Positions 1 through 43,574 of a DNA stretch of 43,574 nt are shown here, in pieces (positions within the stretch are counted from its first letter, which is position 1; the number at the start of each line of letters is the position of its first letter). The position numbers and the translations under genes are program-made. The notes below the pieces were generated by a model that saw only the letters and a program-made list of their open reading frames with translations, searched no databases and was not told the DNA's origin. The DNA is from a virus: positions 1-43,574 of IMG/VR virus record IMGVR_UViG_3300038309_000034; one strand, given 5' to 3'.

Positions 1-99
1 TTTTTCACCTTTGTTCCTCTGACTGGAACCACTACCATGTCCAATGCATCCATGGGTGATGCATCTATTACCAAGGTATCTGCTGGTGTCGAGCCGACT
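1..99. repeat. Left copy of 99-bp terminal overlap
   Basis: Bases 1-99 are identical to 43476-43574. Both copies lie inside the major capsid coding sequence and the frame is preserved when the ends are joined. This is best explained as the overlap left by a circular (k-mer based) assembly, not as a biological terminal repeat. Confidence 0.95.
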
Positions 100-849
100 G
101 CCGGGTCCATCGAAATGGGCCGACAGATCGTAACCGTAGAGACTCCCATTATCTGCCGGACCATCGTGTCCATGCTTGAGGATGTTCAGGATCGTCTGAG
201 CGTTCGCTCTCGTCTCCCGGAGAACTACGGTCGCCAAATTCAAAAACACGAAGACCGGGTACTCCTGGTTAAAGGTGTGCAGGCGGCTCGTACCGCAGCA
301 GGTCCCGTCTCTGACATCCCCGGTGGTACCGTAAAGACGTATGCCGCTGCTGGTGATGAAACAGACCCCGATGCAGCAGAGGCCCTTGTTCTTTCTCTGG
401 CCCAGGCCATGGATGAAAAAGAGGTTCCCCGTGAAAATGGTATCATGATGGTTGATCCGGAAACCTACTACACCCTGCTCCAGGCCAACAAGCTCATCAG
501 CACCGACTACAATATGAACAACGGTGACTACTCCTCTGTACGTATCCTACGTGCTGGCGGATTCCCGCTGATGGCCACCAACAGGTTCCAGCAGACTGCT
601 GATGACGGCTCTACCTCTGGCTCTATCGGAAACCTCTATGGTTCCGAGTATTACACTGATGCCACAGGTGCCCGCATTAAGGGCCTGTTCGTGACCAATG
701 AAATGCTCATGGTAGCTGAGGCAATTCCCCTGACTCCCAAAGTCTGGTGGAGCGATCAGCTTCTTTGCTGGTTCATTGATGCTTTCAAAGCTATCGGCGC
801 GGCTGTTGACCGTGCTGATTATGCTGCTGGCATCTTCGAACACGCATGA
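1..849 (+). CDS. Major capsid protein, C-terminal 282 residues (5' end at window end)
   Basis: This is the T7 gp10A-type major capsid protein that forms the icosahedral shell. The frame is open from base 1 to the TGA at 847-849. Joined in phase to the ATG at 43338 across the circular junction it makes a protein of 328 residues, close to the T7 length of 345. The ATG at 37 is internal and not a start. The identification rests on the position directly downstream of portal and scaffold genes and upstream of tail tube A, together with the HK97-type mixed alpha/beta composition ending in a hydrophobic C-terminus. There is no in-frame extension past the stop, which is followed at once by TAA in the same frame, so no gp10B-like readthrough product is evident. 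Confidence 0.93.
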   Translation, partial: FFTFVPLTGTTTMSNASMGDASITKVSAGVEPTAGSIEMGRQIVTVETPIICRTIVSMLEDVQDRLSVRSRLPENYGRQIQKHEDRVLLVKGVQAARTAAGPVSDIPGGTVKTYAAAGDETDPDAAEALVLSLAQAMDEKEVPRENGIMMVDPETYYTLLQANKLISTDYNMNNGDYSSVRILRAGGFPLMATNRFQQTADDGSTSGSIGNLYGSEYYTDATGARIKGLFVTNEMLMVAEAIPLTPKVWWSDQLLCWFIDAFKAIGAAVDRADYAAGIFEHA

Positions 850-855
850 TAACTA

Positions 856-922
856 CTAATAATGGGATAGTGTGTGTTACGGAGTATTAACTGGGGATAG
901 CCCAGACACAACCCCATATTAG
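856..922 (+). ncRNA. Structured RNA element 1 in capsid 3' UTR
   Basis: This stretch folds into nested helices. P1 is CTAAT (856-860) with ATTAG (918-922), continued after one bulged base by ATGGG (862-866) with CCCAT (913-917). P2 is TGTGT (871-875) with ACACA (906-910). P3 is CTGGG (891-895) with CCCAG (901-905), stacked directly on P2. The single-stranded parts ATAG, GTTAC and GTATTAA recur at equivalent places in element 2, while the helices differ in sequence but keep pairing. It starts seven bases after the capsid stop codon. No known RNA family was recognised, and its function is unknown. Confidence 0.7.
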
Positions 923-1017
923 AATAGTGGGAAAGCGTGATAGCGCGTTACTGGCCTGTGCACAGGTAAAGGAACAGCGTATTAACTGGGTCGGACCCAG
1001 GCGTAGCTTCCACTATT
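923..1017 (+). ncRNA. Structured RNA element 2 in capsid 3' UTR
   Basis: This is a second copy of the element just upstream. P1 is AATAGTGG (923-930) with CCACTATT (1010-1017), plus AAGC (933-936) with GCTT (1006-1009). P2 is CGC (944-946) with GCG (1001-1003). P3 is CTGGG (986-990) with CCCAG (996-1000). The conserved linkers ATAG, GTTAC and GTATTAA sit in the same order as in element 1. An extra hairpin, CCTGTGCACAGG at 955-966, is inserted between GTTAC and GTATTAA. Different helices that keep their pairing between copies argue for a conserved RNA rather than chance. It ends 18 bases before the terminator. Confidence 0.7.
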
Positions 1018-1035
1018 ATAGTTGTTCTTGTGCTT

Positions 1036-1069
1036 ATGTCCTGCGGATTATTCCGTAGGGCATTTTTTT
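1036..1069 (+). terminator. Rho-independent terminator after capsid gene (T-phi analogue)
   Basis: Bases 1036-1063 form a 12-bp hairpin (two G-T wobbles) with loop TTAT, and the strand continues into a run of seven T at 1063-1069. The position right after the capsid gene matches the T-phi terminator of T7, which stops most phage RNA polymerase after gene 10 and lets part read on into the tail genes. Confidence 0.92.
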
Positions 1070-1087: not shown

Positions 1088-1675
1088 ATGGCAATAACAG
1101 TAAATCAAGATGAACTGACCATCATAAATTCCATGCTGGCAGGCCTGGGTGATCTCCCGGTGGAAGACCTGGAGGAGGCTGCCAGTGATGCAGATGTCCT
1201 CAAGGCAAGACAGCACTTGAAACAAATAATGATCTCTGAACAGACCCTTGGTTGGTGGTTCAATACAGAAACTTGGGAGTTTACCCCGGATGGAACAACC
1301 GGGTATATAGACCTCCCTGATAATACTATTAGGATAAAGGGTCAGGAGCAGTACATAATTAGGGGGGGATTTTTGTATGATGTTACCAATCATACTCTGG
1401 TTATTGATGAAGACACGATAGACCTTAATCTGGTTCTTCTTCTGGACTATGATGAGGTTCCTTACAGCTTCTTCCAGTACATCCAGGCCAAGGCCAGATA
1501 CAGCTTCTTCCTCCAAGAGGACGGAGATCCACAGCAGACACAGCTTTTGGCCAGAGAATACTCAGAGACTCTCAGGGTTATACAGGATGAGAATATTCAA
1601 TTCAAGTCTCCTAATGCCTTTACGAAGAACCCCACGGTACAACGGGTATTCAGCGGCTGGACCAGTAGGAGGTAA
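1088..1675 (+). CDS. Tail tubular protein A (gp11-like)
   Basis: This 195-residue product matches the length of T7 gp11 (196 residues), the gatekeeper ring that joins the portal to the nozzle of the short tail. It opens with a helical segment (VNQDELTIINSMLAGLGDLP) followed by residues of the typical W-W-F-N-T-E-T-W-E-F block around position 55, a pattern seen in tail tube A proteins of T7-like phages. The start is an ATG preceded by TTAGGAG. It follows the capsid terminator and precedes tail tube B by two bases, so it is expressed by readthrough from the capsid promoter. Confidence 0.9.
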   Translation: MAITVNQDELTIINSMLAGLGDLPVEDLEEAASDADVLKARQHLKQIMISEQTLGWWFNTETWEFTPDGTTGYIDLPDNTIRIKGQEQYIIRGGFLYDVTNHTLVIDEDTIDLNLVLLLDYDEVPYSFFQYIQAKARYSFFLQEDGDPQQTQLLAREYSETLRVIQDENIQFKSPNAFTKNPTVQRVFSGWTSRR

Positions 1676-1677
1676 GC

Positions 1678-4176
1678 ATGTCAACTTTAACAGGAACAGT
1701 GGGTAATCTAATTCAAGGAGTATCCCAGCAAGATCCACATGTTAGAGCGCTCGGTCAGGTAACTGAGCAGATTAATATGAGGAGTAACACTGCTCTTGGA
1801 CTGGTTCGTAGACCTGGCACTAAATTTGAGTTTGCTATACCGGCAGATCTTACTATTGATCAAGACACTGCCGTGTATGAATACACATCAGGTGACGATA
1901 AATACATCGTATTCCTTCGTCCTGACGGAATGGCCGTTCTGGATTACGAGGGAAACTATCAGGCTATTTCTGGTGGATATGACGCCTATACTGCTGAGTT
2001 CAAGGACCCGGCCCTTTCCGCTGTTCATAATTTATCTGACTATGTTGGTTCTGCGGAATCTTCAGAGAGCCTTATGGCCCACACCGTAGCTGATACAACT
2101 TTTATTCTAAACAAAGAGGTTACAGTAGGGGACACACAGACATCAGCATATGTAAGTTCCGCTAATACCCGTAGTTATATCTATGTAAAAAAGGTAGAAT
2201 ACGGAGCCGCCTATGTTATCAACGAGAACACTGGAGGGAGTGCAATAACTGCCGCCTCTATAGTTCTGCCTACATCTAAAACAGTGGCCGCGGGCAGCGT
2301 TAACCTGGAAAACCTGACCTCTCCAAGCAACGTAGCCTTTTATCTGGCAGACGCTTTAATTCTGGCTGGATACACAGCGTATGTAGTAGGAGATTCTACA
2401 ATTGCAGTTGTAGGAAAAGACATGTCAGTTGACTCGGATTATCCGGATAACATCTTAGTGTATAAAGACAAGATTGCCAGATATGAGGATCTTCCCCCTA
2501 TTGGCGATGACATTCAGGACGTTCAGATAGTCGGAGACACTAATGCAGAGAATAAGTACTACGTAAAGGGCACTGGAGCTAAGTATTCAAAGACGAGTGT
2601 TCCTTATCAGAATCCCTTAGTTACCACAGTGTCTATTCTCGTTGGAACTTTCACACAATATCTATTTACGGATTTCAGATGGGATGAGGTAGCAGATGAT
2701 TTACAGGCTGAGGATCTAAACGGAATAGATCCGTACTCTATGCCTCACCTTCTAAGCAAAACGGCTTCTGGATTTTTAGTATCCATTGGCGACTGGGAGA
2801 ATCGGCCTGCGGGAGATGGGGACACCAATCCGGCTCCTAAATTTATAGGGCGGACTATCTCAGATATCTCCGATTACCAGAATCGCCTGGTATTTCTCGC
2901 GGGGAGATACCTGTGTGCCAGTAGAACAGATGAATGGTTCGCCTTCTGGAAAGACACAGTAATAACGGTTAATCCCGCAAACCCTGTGAATATCTCAGCA
3001 GGCACAGAATTATTCAGTTCAGCGAAGGTAGCTGGAGATTTCATTGCATTTTCTACTAATGGTCCCTACAGGGTCTTTGGGCAATCAGAGCCATTTACTG
3101 CGTCTTCTCCTCTTGTTAAGGTTGCAGACCTGCAAATATCAAAACGAGCCAATCCGAAGACCACAAAACTTGGGGTGATAGCTGCGTATTCCTCTGGGGT
3201 AAACACAAATCTTCAGGAATTGGTTGTTACAGGGGACTCTCGATTGATCCTCCCGTTGCCCCTGACAAGTCACATACCCTCCTATATTGAGCATGATGTA
3301 GTTCAGATTGAAATGCATAATGCATATAATATGGCTTTTGTGCGTACAAAGAATGGATACGCCCCATCAATGGAGCTATATGTATACGAGGGGGGTTCAG
3401 ACTCATCTGGTAAACAGGTACAACAATCTTGGGGAAAATGGGTATTCGGTTCTTTAACCTACCCAGACCATATCAGGCATATGTGGCTAAACGAGAACAC
3501 TCTGTATCTTATACTGGCACACCGAGATGACGCAACTAAGTGCTACGTCTACAGTATTCCCCTTGATCCGGCCTACACTGAGTACCTTACAGGATTCAGA
3601 CCAACAGTGGATAGGATGCAAGAAGTAACCACAGAGGCCCTCAATCCTACAGAGGCTGATATAAATTGTGGGGATACCATAGTGTGTATACTTACGGATG
3701 ACGACTCAGGAGCCCAGTTGGCGGCCACCAGTTCAGGAGACAGGCTGTACATTGACGATCCTACAATTGACGTGCCGACAGACGTACTTGTTGGACGGCC
3801 CATGGAAAGTTCAGTTACCTTGAGTCCCCTATATCTAAGACACGCCGACGGATCTCCGAGAATCACAAGCAGGACACAGTTAAAAAGAATGTGGTTGAAT
3901 TATGTAGCTACTGGACATATAGAGGTTGAAGTAACCGACAAGGCAGGGACAGTCACAACAAAAGTATGGGACTGTTCAGAGGATGCTATTAATGGTATAT
4001 GGGACAGTCTGGCTCTACAGTCAGGAAGCCTCACAGTGCCGTTAAGGGGAACTAACACGGATGTAACCATCAAAATTAAAAGCTCTGATTATAAGCCCTT
4101 GAGTGTAACATCTTTGCAGTTTACTGCAAGGTATGGAAGACGGGCATCTACTCGGGCTAAGAATACAGTAATTTAA
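1678..4176 (+). CDS. Tail tubular protein B (gp12-like)
   Basis: The 832-residue product corresponds to T7 gp12 (794 residues), the nozzle of the tail. The N-terminus GNLIQGVSQQDPHVRALGQV is the family's signature opening (query on 'gVSqQ...r...Q...Q.N'). The protein is rich in beta strands and contains the usual block on tail protein fold with 'RTISDISDYQNRLVFLAG' near residue 395. AGGAGG directly precedes the ATG. It lies between tail tube A and the first internal virion protein, in the same order as in T7. Confidence 0.92.
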   Translation: MSTLTGTVGNLIQGVSQQDPHVRALGQVTEQINMRSNTALGLVRRPGTKFEFAIPADLTIDQDTAVYEYTSGDDKYIVFLRPDGMAVLDYEGNYQAISGGYDAYTAEFKDPALSAVHNLSDYVGSAESSESLMAHTVADTTFILNKEVTVGDTQTSAYVSSANTRSYIYVKKVEYGAAYVINENTGGSAITAASIVLPTSKTVAAGSVNLENLTSPSNVAFYLADALILAGYTAYVVGDSTIAVVGKDMSVDSDYPDNILVYKDKIARYEDLPPIGDDIQDVQIVGDTNAENKYYVKGTGAKYSKTSVPYQNPLVTTVSILVGTFTQYLFTDFRWDEVADDLQAEDLNGIDPYSMPHLLSKTASGFLVSIGDWENRPAGDGDTNPAPKFIGRTISDISDYQNRLVFLAGRYLCASRTDEWFAFWKDTVITVNPANPVNISAGTELFSSAKVAGDFIAFSTNGPYRVFGQSEPFTASSPLVKVADLQISKRANPKTTKLGVIAAYSSGVNTNLQELVVTGDSRLILPLPLTSHIPSYIEHDVVQIEMHNAYNMAFVRTKNGYAPSMELYVYEGGSDSSGKQVQQSWGKWVFGSLTYPDHIRHMWLNENTLYLILAHRDDATKCYVYSIPLDPAYTEYLTGFRPTVDRMQEVTTEALNPTEADINCGDTIVCILTDDDSGAQLAATSSGDRLYIDDPTIDVPTDVLVGRPMESSVTLSPLYLRHADGSPRITSRTQLKRMWLNYVATGHIEVEVTDKAGTVTTKVWDCSEDAINGIWDSLALQSGSLTVPLRGTNTDVTIKIKSSDYKPLSVTSLQFTARYGRRASTRAKNTVI

Positions 4177-17075: not shown

Positions 17076-17099
17076 TGAAGTTACCCTTCAATAACTTCA
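17076..17099 (+). other. Hairpin with conserved loop, copy 1
   Basis: TGAAGTT (17076-17082) pairs with AACTTCA (17093-17099) around the loop ACCCTTCAAT. A second hairpin at 17878 has a different stem but shares ACCCTTCAAT in its loop. Both precede small genes and are followed by CTATA and AAGGAT before the start codon, so the two 5' regions look related. Confidence 0.6.
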
Positions 17100-17107
17100 A
17101 TTAGTTA

Positions 17108-17130
17108 GTATTAATTAATCCTATAGAAAG
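17108..17130 (+). promoter_or_regulatory. Candidate phage RNA polymerase promoter (weak match)
   Basis: TTAATTAATCCTATAGAA resembles the recurring CTTTAACCCTATAGRA site, with start expected at G17126. It differs at one C of the CCC block and in the upstream part. It lies 14 bases before the ATG at 17140. Its GAAAGGA also serves as the ribosome binding site, so the similarity could be partly accidental. Confidence 0.4.
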
Positions 17131-18375: not shown

Positions 18376-18799
18376 ACTGTAGTACTGCTGGGAGTTCCTT
18401 GGAGGTTCTCCCGGTGGTTCATCCTGTAGTCCCTTAGGTGTTTTCAAAAATCTGATATAAATTTCTGAGCACTGACTAACGTCCGGCGGACCTCCTGAGT
18501 TCCCCCATAGGGCACCCTGAGGACCTGGCACGGGAATTGCAGGCTGTTCCCTCTGAGGGCACCAAATAGCCTCTCTAAGACCATCAGGTTGTCCTCTGGT
18601 GTATCTGCCTTCCTTTAGTATAGAAGTTCTCTTAGAGGACCTCTTTGGGGCCCCCCCTTTGGATTCTTGGCTGGTTCTTGTGGCCGGACTCGGGTCGGCA
18701 CTCCGGTCTGCACTCCAGGCGGGACCCTCAGAGGATGGCCAGATGAGCACCAGAAGGGCCGCTGGGAGTGCCTAAAGGGTCCTCTAAGGGCCATTATAG

Positions 18800-18982
18800 G
18801 GTCTTATTGACGAAGTCAATGGTTCTCTGGGATAGGTTACTTTTTTGTTTGAACACCTGGGAAACACCGGAGGGACACTTGTGGGAACATCTGAGAGGAC
18901 ACCAGGAAGACTACCAGGTACCTATTGACCGTATTATTGACATGTTCCTCTATATAGTACCATTGACTTCGTCAATAAGACC
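18800..18982. repeat. 24-bp perfect inverted repeat with 135-bp spacer
   Basis: Bases 18800-18823 are the exact reverse complement of 18959-18982. Each arm contains a smaller dyad, ATTGAC-TTC-GTCAAT or its complement. Two further ATTGAC words lie near the right arm (18923 and 18936). The spacer encodes nothing convincing. It may mark a genome end, a replication or packaging structure, or an RNA hairpin. Confidence 0.85.
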
Positions 18983-18988
18983 TACTGG

Positions 18989-19079
18989 AATACATACAAC
19001 TAATACCTTTAGTTTGTATATCATATTTATTAAATCGAAGTATTACCTTAATTGATATATCTATTAATACATACAACTA
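18989..19079. repeat. 14-bp direct repeat AATACATACAACTA
   Basis: The word AATACATACAACTA occurs at 18989-19002 and 19066-19079, 77 bases apart. Part of it (ATACAACTATT) recurs at 35693-35703, in both cases about 12-14 bases upstream of a CTTTAACCCTATAG site. It may be an upstream promoter element or part of the flanking stem. Confidence 0.65.
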
Positions 19080-19093
19080 TTATATATTATATA

Positions 19094-19113
19094 CTTCTTT
19101 AACCCTATAGAAG
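19094..19113 (+). promoter_or_regulatory. Phage RNA polymerase promoter at left end
   Basis: CTTCTTTAACCCTATAGAAG matches the recurring site; expected start is G19110. It lies in the non-coding region ahead of the early genes, the position of phi-OL in T7. ATACATA (19067-19073) and TATGTAT (19158-19164), with ATTATA/TATAAT inside, form arms around it. Confidence 0.75.
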
Positions 19114-19277
19114 AGTCCACAGGAAGAACTAATAGTTCTATTAATAGTATAATCTAATATGTATCTATTATATTCTTAGTTAGTATCTTATTAATATATA
19201 ATCTAAGAGTATCATATAATAGAACTCTTATGATACTTCCTGGTACATCCTTTGCATTATTCAATTATCATGCCAAA

Positions 19278-19327
19278 AGATCGCTGAGTGTTCCCTTAGA
19301 GGGTGCAATCGACGATCTAATTTTTTT
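19278..19327 (+). terminator. Possible terminator upstream of early promoter
   Basis: AGATCG (19278-19283) pairs with CGATCT (19313-19318), with an inner CCCT-TAG-AGGG hairpin, followed after two bases by seven T (19321-19327). It could stop readthrough from the right end or left-end promoter before the early host promoter. The internal loops make it weaker than the two other terminators. Confidence 0.4.
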
Positions 19328-19471
19328 AGACCTGAGATACCAGTGAACTATCAAAGTGCCTCAGATCGTCTATTTGGTGTCTTAAATTCGATGTTCAGCC
19401 ACAGGTAACACTGGCCTTATGGCATGCCCTTTGCAATTCCTTTAATACACTTCCGGTAGTCCTCAAGCTGT

Positions 19472-19489
19472 ACTGTTCAATTGGCCAGT
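19472..19489. promoter_or_regulatory. 18-bp palindrome site 1
   Basis: ACTGTTCAATTGGCCAGT is a member of the family with consensus ACTGGYCAATTGRCCAGT. It lies about 52 bases upstream of the -35 box of the early sigma-70 promoter. Confidence 0.65.
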
Positions 19490-19541
19490 GAAAGTTACTC
19501 TGATGGTAACGTTAAAAAAGACAAGACGCATTAAAAAGTCC

Positions 19542-19569
19542 TTGACATGAAAATTCATTCGTGTATAAT
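19542..19569 (+). promoter_or_regulatory. Consensus sigma-70 early promoter
   Basis: TTGACA (19542-19547) and TATAAT (19564-19569) are both perfect, with a 16-base spacer. Transcription should begin near 19576, about 60 bases before the first early gene at 19636. This is the expected entry point for host RNA polymerase into the early region, comparable to the A promoters of T7. Confidence 0.9.
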
Positions 19570-25440: not shown

Positions 25441-25526
25441 AGGTCAATCGCATAATGGTATTGTACTGGACTCCAAATCCAGCGGACACACGTCCATTGC
25501 GGGTTCGAATCCTGCTTGGCCTGCCA
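25441..25526 (+). tRNA. tRNA-Trp (anticodon CCA) with extended variable arm
   Basis: The acceptor stem AGGTCAA (25441-25447) pairs with TTGGCCT (25516-25522), followed by G73 and an encoded CCA. The anticodon arm is CTGGA-CTCCAAA-TCCAG, giving anticodon CCA at 25473-25475. The T arm is GCGGG-TTCGAAT-CCTGC. A1-U72, G73 and CCA are the bacterial tryptophanyl-tRNA synthetase identity elements. The variable region is 16 bases (25483-25498) with a GGAC-ACAC-GTCC hairpin, which is class II length and unusual for tRNA-Trp. Confidence 0.85.
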
Positions 25527-30223: not shown

Positions 30224-30243
30224 TAACACTAACCCTATAGAAT
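30224..30243 (+). promoter_or_regulatory. Phage RNA polymerase promoter before the 30268 operon
   Basis: TAACACTAACCCTATAGAAT matches the promoter core, with start expected at G30240. It lies 28 bases before the ATG at 30268 and would drive the replication genes. A palindrome sits immediately upstream. Confidence 0.7.
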
Positions 30244-43207: not shown

Positions 43208-43228
43208 CAGTTGTGTCTTCCTTTAGAT

Positions 43229-43324
43229 CTGTGTTCTTATACAAAACATGAATTCTTTAACCCTATAGAAGGGTAGCTAAAATCTCAGTAAAAAAAGAAG
43301 AATCGTAACAGTATAAGAACACAG
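43229..43324. repeat. 14-bp perfect inverted repeat around capsid promoter
   Basis: CTGTGTTCTTATAC (43229-43242) is the exact reverse complement of GTATAAGAACACAG (43311-43324), with a 68-base spacer holding the promoter. The right arm touches the ribosome binding site AAGGA (43326-43330) of the capsid gene. Confidence 0.9.
43251..43271 (+). promoter_or_regulatory. Phage RNA polymerase promoter for capsid gene (phi10 analogue)
   Basis: AATTCTTTAACCCTATAGAA matches the consensus; start is expected at G43268, giving a 70-base leader before the capsid ATG. The position corresponds to phi10 of T7. Confidence 0.88.
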
Positions 43325-43337
43325 AAAGGAAATTATA

Positions 43338-43574
43338 ATGCCCGTACTTGATTATTCAGGATATTTGAACCACCCCGGTCAGTTGAACCTTGCTGGCGAT
43401 GAATTCGCCCTTGCAATCGAACAATTCAATGGTCGGGTAAAGAACAGTGCCATGTGGGCACAGCAGGTGAAACCGTTTTTCACCTTTGTTCCTCTGACTG
43501 GAACCACTACCATGTCCAATGCATCCATGGGTGATGCATCTATTACCAAGGTATCTGCTGGTGTCGAGCCGACT
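43338..43574 (+). CDS. Major capsid protein, N-terminal 79 residues (continues at base 1)
   Basis: The ATG at 43338 follows AGAAAGGA. The first 46 codons, up to 43475, are found only here; the next 33 codons repeat bases 1-99. The N-terminus is MPVLDYSGYLNHPGQLNLAG. Continuation in frame at base 1 gives the full 328-residue capsid protein. The gene follows the scaffold after a 130-base regulatory spacer. Confidence 0.93.
   Translation, partial: MPVLDYSGYLNHPGQLNLAGDEFALAIEQFNGRVKNSAMWAQQVKPFFTFVPLTGTTTMSNASMGDASITKVSAGVEPT
43476..43574. repeat. Right copy of 99-bp terminal overlap
   Basis: This is the exact copy of bases 1-99 and should be removed once when the genome is treated as circular. 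Confidence 0.95.

Follow-up and report, generated by a model that had tools for sequence, protein, structure and literature searches.

Tandem copies of a predicted RNA fold between the capsid gene and its terminator in an uncultured T7-like podophage

Transcription unit of the capsid gene

The window analyzed here (IMGVR_UViG_3300038309_000034; the whole stretch of DNA, 43,574 nt) is the complete T7-like podophage genome of an uncultured virus of bacteria. Its ends, positions 1-99 and 43476-43574, are identical and represent a 99-nt terminal repeat through which the genome closes. Among the genes identified are those encoding a T7-type single-subunit RNA polymerase (phrog_414), a DNA polymerase, the portal, scaffold and capsid proteins, tail tubular proteins, an internal virion protein with a lytic domain, a tail fibre and a terminase. 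The features that delimit the capsid transcription unit are as follows:

43253..43271, + strand: phage RNA-polymerase-type promoter TTCTTTAACCCTATAGAAG, upstream of the capsid gene, identified by motif matches
1..849, + strand: C-terminal part of the major capsid gene (phrog_267, E 1e-51), which starts at 43338 and continues through the terminal repeat
1036..1063, + strand: intrinsic terminator, a 12-bp stem followed by a run of T (T7), with a folding z of -6.2
1088..1675, + strand: tail tubular protein A gene (phrog_446, E 5e-50), the first gene past the terminator

The capsid frame is closed by two stops, TGA TAA, at 847-852 (stop codon at 847-849). These and further in-frame stops, together with a -1 frame that ends within ~40 nt, led to the rejection of a T7-type capsid frameshift.

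Further copies of the capsid promoter were found at 19095, 24629 and 35716, with shorter core matches at 30230 and 17116; four matches to the motif had ≤3 mismatches, compared to 0.03 expected in shuffles, and the promoter sequence TTCTTTAACCCTATAG is present at 43253 and at five other sites, with a mismatch at the 17116 site. No promoter of the capsid type was found between 1064 and ~17116 and the 16-kb block past the terminator therefore appears to depend on read-through. Taking into consideration the promoter at 43253, the terminator at 1036-1063 and the lack of a promoter until ~17116, the elements described below are located at the boundary of the capsid unit, where capsid transcription and tail-to-terminase transcription part. 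In T7, gene 10, the capsid gene with its own promoter, is followed by a leaky intrinsic terminator, T-phi, and then by the tail gene 11. By comparison, the T7 junction has a terminator only, whereas the junction analyzed here has additional tandem elements.

A perfect 15-nt inverted repeat (TCTGTGTTCTTATAC / GTATAAGAACACAGA, at 43228-43242 and 43311-43325) flanks the capsid promoter and leader, with its 3' end just upstream of the ribosome-binding site. In a read-through mRNA this repeat is predicted to form a hairpin of -32 kcal/mol; a capsid mRNA started at the promoter would be devoid of the 5' arm and is predicted to be nearly without structure. The repeat could represent a candidate processing site or a start-dependent translation switch for the capsid.

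Two copies of one predicted fold

The 3' UTR of the capsid gene contains the following features:

850..855, + strand: 5' strand (TAACTA) of a possible closing helix, P0, pairing with TAGTTG at 1019-1024
856..922, + strand: element copy 1, with stem P1 (856-866/913-922), ATAG (867-870) and stem P2 (871-875/906-910)
876..905, + strand: inner parts of copy 1, with GTTAC (876-880), a GGA triloop, GTATTAA (884-890) and stem P3 (891-895/901-905)
923..1017, + strand: element copy 2, with stem P1 (923-932 and 935-936 / 1006-1017) and GTG-ATAG (937-943)
944..1003, + strand: inner parts of copy 2, with stem P2 (944-946/1001-1003, uncertain), GTTAC (947-951) and an insert (952-978)
955..966, + strand: hairpin CCTG-TGCA-CAGG, predicted by folding, in copy 2 only
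979..1000, + strand: further inner parts of copy 2, with GTATTAA (979-985) and stem P3 (986-990/996-1000)
1019..1024, + strand: 3' strand (TAGTTG) of the possible helix P0, from the minimum-energy fold of the 3' UTR

The original prediction described two tandem structured RNAs, sharing one order of words and helices, between the capsid stop codon and the terminator, and both the arrangement and the location were confirmed. The stop codon (847-849) and the terminator (1036-1063) flank 856-1017, and the pattern GTTAC-N(1,31)-GTATTAACTGGG-N5-CCCAG was found exactly twice in the 43,574 bases and in 0 of 100 dinucleotide-preserving shuffles. Copy 1 begins six bases past the capsid stop codon, the two copies abut with a zero-base spacer between 922 and 923, and copy 2 ends 18 bases ahead of the terminator. 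A hairpin inserted in the second copy only had also been predicted correctly. This hairpin is a perfect 12-nt palindrome (CCTGTGCACAGG) that could pair between two RNA molecules.

Conservation between the copies is unevenly distributed. As predicted, the copies agree at all 16 bases of the single-stranded words ATAG, GTTAC and GTATTAA and throughout the P3 stem CTGGG/CCCAG (10/10 bases), whereas the P3 loops have 0 of 5 bases in common. In a structure-guided alignment 44 of 59 columns are identical, and all 15 substitutions fall outside the 26 columns of the words and the P3 stem (chance of 2.6e-5, calculated post hoc). The fact that these words and the P3 stem are unchanged while the apical loop and the inner helix have diverged suggests selection on a fold.

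As MAFFT misaligned the copies owing to the insert in copy 2, covariance models built from single copies were used. Searched against both strands of the whole genome, the model from copy 2 alone recovered copy 1 in full (26.7 bits, E 4.5e-4). The reverse search, with a model from copy 1 alone, gave a weak match to copy 2 (13.5-17.9 bits, E 0.2-0.33), in which the junction was aligned as originally described. Consensus folding of the hand alignment gave -14.5 kcal/mol, compared to -2.6 ± 1.7 kcal/mol in column shuffles (0 of 500 equalled it), a contrast that is somewhat overstated given that the alignment was hand-fitted to the structure. Scores from single-sequence folding were modest, with z of -1.9 and -2.9 for the single copies and -3.1 for the whole stretch minus the terminator. 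In the joint ensemble, P1 and P3 of both copies had pair probabilities mostly >0.85 and the terminator stem had pair probabilities of 0.90-1.0; elements and terminator fold independently and no overlapping antiterminator helix was found.

Other structural claims held in part. P1 had been described as differing in sequence between the copies yet staying paired. Pairing was supported; the outer 8 bp, by contrast, have nearly the same sequence in both copies (AATAATGGG / AATAGTGGG), and the differences consist of a bulged A in place of a G-C pair, one change from G-C to G-U and a 4-bp inner extension in copy 2. For P2, divergence of the inner helix was borne out, but pairing in copy 2 was not, as its P2 (CGC/GCG) costs 5 kcal/mol relative to the minimum-energy fold, or 10 kcal/mol together with a UAC/GUA arm; the minimum-energy fold pairs GCGU/GCGU and GCGCGU/ACAGCGU instead. 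Because this competing fold is 5-10 kcal/mol lower, the exact middle of copy 2 is uncertain. In the predicted structures P1 and P3 are thus solid in both copies, and P2 and the small arm, as proposed, come solely from the comparison of the two copies. Covariation was likewise present, with three pairs in which both bases differ (one of these depends on the alignment), but did not exceed chance, as 57 of 500 column shuffles equalled this number. The six-base helix P0 might close both elements into one three-way junction, but would contribute just ~1.1 kcal/mol; with a chance of ~0.01 for such a helix, it is suggestive at most.

A recent tandem duplication of a meaningless hairpin, with similarity reflecting age only, would account for two copies in a single genome and for a number of double changes within the range of column shuffles. 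This explanation is nevertheless extremely improbable considering the uneven conservation, the pairing kept despite indels in both helices and the consensus folding that none of the 500 shuffles equalled. The most that can be said from these two sequences is that they appear to represent a duplicated fold under constraint.

Comparison with known RNA families and search for homologues

The elements were compared to the 4227 families of Rfam 15, where a score at or above the gathering cut-off of a family was considered a match. A scan of the whole window identified only a tRNA at 25441. A scan of the element region alone, with E up to 10, listed VrrA, VqmR and NsiR1, all below their cut-offs (27 bits for VrrA, compared to a cut-off of 50) and all driven mainly by the terminator. 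These results agree with the original statement that no known riboswitch or ribozyme family could be recognized. One alternative raised by the scan is that the capsid 3' UTR gives rise to a small RNA, ended by the terminator, that acts in trans on host or phage mRNAs. Small RNAs derived from 3' UTRs usually show this arrangement, in which a structured UTR precedes a strong terminator with a T run, and the weak matches to VrrA and VqmR point in the same direction; two mostly paired homologous domains, on the other hand, would leave little free seed, and with the matches below cut-off this alternative is very unlikely.

Equally, a pair of self-cleaving ribozymes that trims the capsid mRNA would be highly improbable. 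Small nucleolytic ribozymes carry ~15 conserved core bases around a junction, tolerate loop insertions and may occur in tandem copies, and the word conservation seen here resembles such a conserved junction core, this being the one computed feature that speaks for catalysis. Against it, no Rfam ribozyme model (hammerhead, twister, pistol, hatchet, twister-sister, HDV or similar) matched the region alone up to E 10, the cores of hammerhead, twister, pistol, hatchet and twister-sister do not fit the words by eye, and there are no homologues from which to judge an invariant core.

Several other classes share features with the elements. Tandem riboswitches are similar in that a pair of homologous folds precedes a terminator and a gene, but no Rfam riboswitch matched and no helix exchange with the terminator is predicted; a tandem riboswitch with an expression platform was therefore rejected, as no helix is exclusive with the terminator, whose pairs have probabilities of 0.90-1.0 while P1 and P3 stay formed. 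In the 3' UTR of flaviviruses, tandem exonuclease-resistant RNAs stop 5'-to-3' decay by means of a threaded ring pseudoknot. These RNAs are also tandem paralogous junction folds in a 3' UTR ahead of a terminal hairpin, yet they differ in the pseudoknot, which was not identified in the elements, and no Rfam match was found. REP/BIME hairpins are imperfect palindromes behind bacterial genes that can slow 3'-to-5' exonucleases; they are found in many copies across a chromosome, whereas the elements are present in two copies only and the unpaired words are the conserved part. In their action, the elements may be comparable to REP-type stabilizers or to tandem exonuclease-resistant RNAs. A solitary unit resembling a CRISPR repeat was rejected because of P3 loops with 0 of 5 bases in common, a spacing of 95 nt and a long enclosing P1, and a group I intron was rejected because no Rfam match was found. 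No known family thus agrees with the elements in all of its membership tests; the kind of RNA, a cis-acting folded phage RNA in a 3' UTR, is known, and the fold is new as far as the searches show.

The original prediction assigned the elements to a conserved RNA family, which was not supported, as no members are known beyond the two copies described here. No homologues were found in IMG/VR or GTDB genomes (exact-word scans), in phage records, including by BLASTN of 50,697 such records, or in the literature, where no description of such an element was found. When 2.8 Mb of retrieved sequence were scanned with a descriptor, and 86 sources and 50 whole records were searched with covariance models, only the two copies and chance matches were obtained; the proposed covariance search thus connected one copy with the other but found no homologue in related phages. 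Neither were elements found at ~85 loci of capsid relatives, where the closest capsid has 37% identity. Homologues with compensatory changes, on which the family assignment had been made to depend, are accordingly absent from the databases searched; this search is a weak rather than a decisive test, as exact-word scans detect unchanged words only and the relatives examined are distant (capsid ≤37% identity).

Single-protein searches with the capsid and the terminase found no relatives, and a capsid alignment search gave 80 loci with ≤37% identity; the nearest capsids have 35% (Alteromonas phage H4/4) and 37% (IMG/VR) identity. The gap between capsid and tail genes is 238 nt here, compared to mostly 11-130 nt in ~80 relatives, and the words in the order of the element are absent from the gaps of these relatives, which suggests that the elements were added to an otherwise ordinary junction of capsid and tail genes.

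A number of candidate matches were rejected. An intergenic site at 17080-17114, with GTTAC and GTATTAA similarly spaced, has no P3 hairpin and folds differently. IMG/VR contigs with GTATTAACTGGG...CCCAG are apparently coding coincidences, many of them in one common sequence context; none has P2' and none has both GTTAC and ATAG in place. Among the matches listed (at least 120 in the first scan), no IMG/VR or GTDB contig with the words ATAG-GTTAC-GTATTAA continues with P3 and P2'. Two model matches in one record (L178), one within the capsid gene (16.7 bits, E 0.44) and one on the opposite strand (16.4 bits, E 1.5), were taken as chance.

A related phage (L136/L199) has a different non-coding stretch of 290 nt between capsid and tail gene (3865-4154), with two 5-bp hairpins of differing stems and the same GAAAGA loop (GGTAG-GAAAGA-CTACC and GTCGG-GAAAGA-CCGAC); no Rfam match was found for the L136 stretch. 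In another record (L181, 1647-1931), a group I intron match (RF00028, 51.8 bits, just over the cut-off) is located at the 3' end of a related capsid gene.

Possible roles at the capsid-tail boundary

In T7-like phages, the excess of capsid over tail protein is usually credited to the promoter and a leaky terminator. A specific folded RNA pair at the capsid-tail boundary, if confirmed, would represent an extra RNA layer of control. As a tentative preference, with a probability of roughly 0.37, the elements are proposed to act as a folded cap in the 3' UTR, by which the 3' end of the capsid mRNA is fixed or protected. The two copies would be paralogous cis-acting RNA domains in the 3' UTR of the mRNA that extends from the 43253 promoter to the 1036-1063 terminator. 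In each of them, the closing stem P1 would carry the ATAG internal loop, followed by a second stem and then by a three-way junction; the arms leaving this junction would be the conserved CTGGG/CCCAG hairpin (P3) and a variable arm. Abutting each other, the elements occupy the space from six bases past the stop codon to just before the terminator, and would halt 3'-to-5' decay once the terminator hairpin has been nibbled or a read-through transcript has been cut beyond the elements, such that the capsid message would outlive the tail part of the operon. We infer that the RNA adopts this fold in vivo, that exonucleases are stopped by it and that capsid expression rises relative to tail expression as a consequence. 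In favor of a cap are the position at the boundary, the independent folding of elements and terminator, a gap larger than that of relatives, the location of substitutions away from the words and P3, and the pairing retained in both copies. Against it, a strong terminator hairpin is usually sufficient to protect a 3' end, no homologue lends support to the fold and, in the middle of copy 2, an alternative structure is favored by 5-10 kcal/mol. Moreover, little conservation of sequence would be expected of a simple roadblock to exonucleases; the identity of 16 unpaired bases and of the P3 stem in copies that have otherwise diverged points toward specific recognition through a protein, a ligand, tertiary contacts or catalysis.

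This conservation could instead reflect a protein site, in which the words ATAG, GTTAC and GTATTAA and the P3 stem are shown to a phage or host RNA-binding protein, for example the capsid or scaffold protein acting in autogenous control, or a host RNA chaperone, with two copies raising avidity. A protein that recognizes the junction and stem would be consistent with unpaired words and a P3 stem that are identical next to a P3 loop in which every base has changed; copy 1 also begins six bases past the stop codon, a position at which it would be opened by ribosomes that terminate there. As no RNA-binding partner was identified among the proteins of this genome, a protein site is considered rather unlikely.

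Another possibility, in our view a doubtful one though second in likelihood to the cap, is read-through control, where the nascent tandem RNA would act on the polymerase or a factor to set passage past the terminator and would tune the capsid-to-tail ratio via the 16-kb block of tail, lysis and terminase genes. The apparent dependence of these late genes on terminator passage is consistent with such control. On the other hand, late transcription is expected from the phage single-subunit polymerase (phrog_414) rather than from the host enzyme, T7-like phages manage with leaky terminators alone, and an antiterminator acting through a terminator-melting helix was rejected since elements and terminator fold independently. 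A further argument in favor comes from the put RNA of phage HK022, a cis-acting antiterminator of ~70 nt with two adjacent stem-loops with internal loops (PMC9378689); put binds the beta' zinc-binding domain of the host RNA polymerase. The elements likewise form two adjacent stem-loops with internal loops, a resemblance in outline only. In the description considered, put acts on early transcripts made by the host RNA polymerase and its stem-loops are not presented as copies of one element, whereas the elements are two homologous units with a total of 162 nt, located before a terminator in a late unit probably transcribed by the phage polymerase.

It has also been considered that the elements contain a processing site at which a host endonuclease, for instance RNase III, would separate capsid from tail mRNA upon read-through of the terminator. 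RNase III cuts T7 mRNAs at long hairpins with internal loops, and P1, P2 and P3 are predicted to stack into hairpins of this type; such a site would nevertheless not need conserved unpaired words, the helices are broken into pieces of 3-12 bp and the terminator already ends the transcript, making this explanation improbable.

Finally, the elements could belong to a new class of compact phage RNA, found in this T7-like phage as two tandem copies where the capsid and tail genes meet. The conserved junction (ATAG, GTTAC, GTATTAA and the CTGGG hairpin) would then have a specific activity, namely stopping an exonuclease by a three-dimensional fold, cleaving itself or causing a single-subunit RNA polymerase to read through a terminator; this is possible, though we regard it as unlikely. 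If exonuclease-resistant or self-cleaving, the elements would be a tool for stabilizing or trimming bacterial mRNAs.

Other potential regulatory sites were observed elsewhere in the genome. A palindrome of 18 nt (type ACTGTCCAATTGGCCAGT) is repeated about eight times, at 19472, 21716, 22890, 24499, 24681, 25410, 30198 and 32296; many of the copies are near gene ends in the early region, and they resemble operator sites for a putative DNA-binding protein. A 27-nt inverted repeat (18800-18826 / 18956-18982, 96% complementary, 129 nt apart) is located near a short ORF at 18768-19055. The 505-nt stretch at 19056-19560, in which the + strand carries no listed gene of ≥60 aa, holds the phage promoter at 19095 as well as a perfect sigma-70 promoter, TTGACA-16-TATAAT, at 19542-19569, and possibly represents an early control region or encodes small RNAs.
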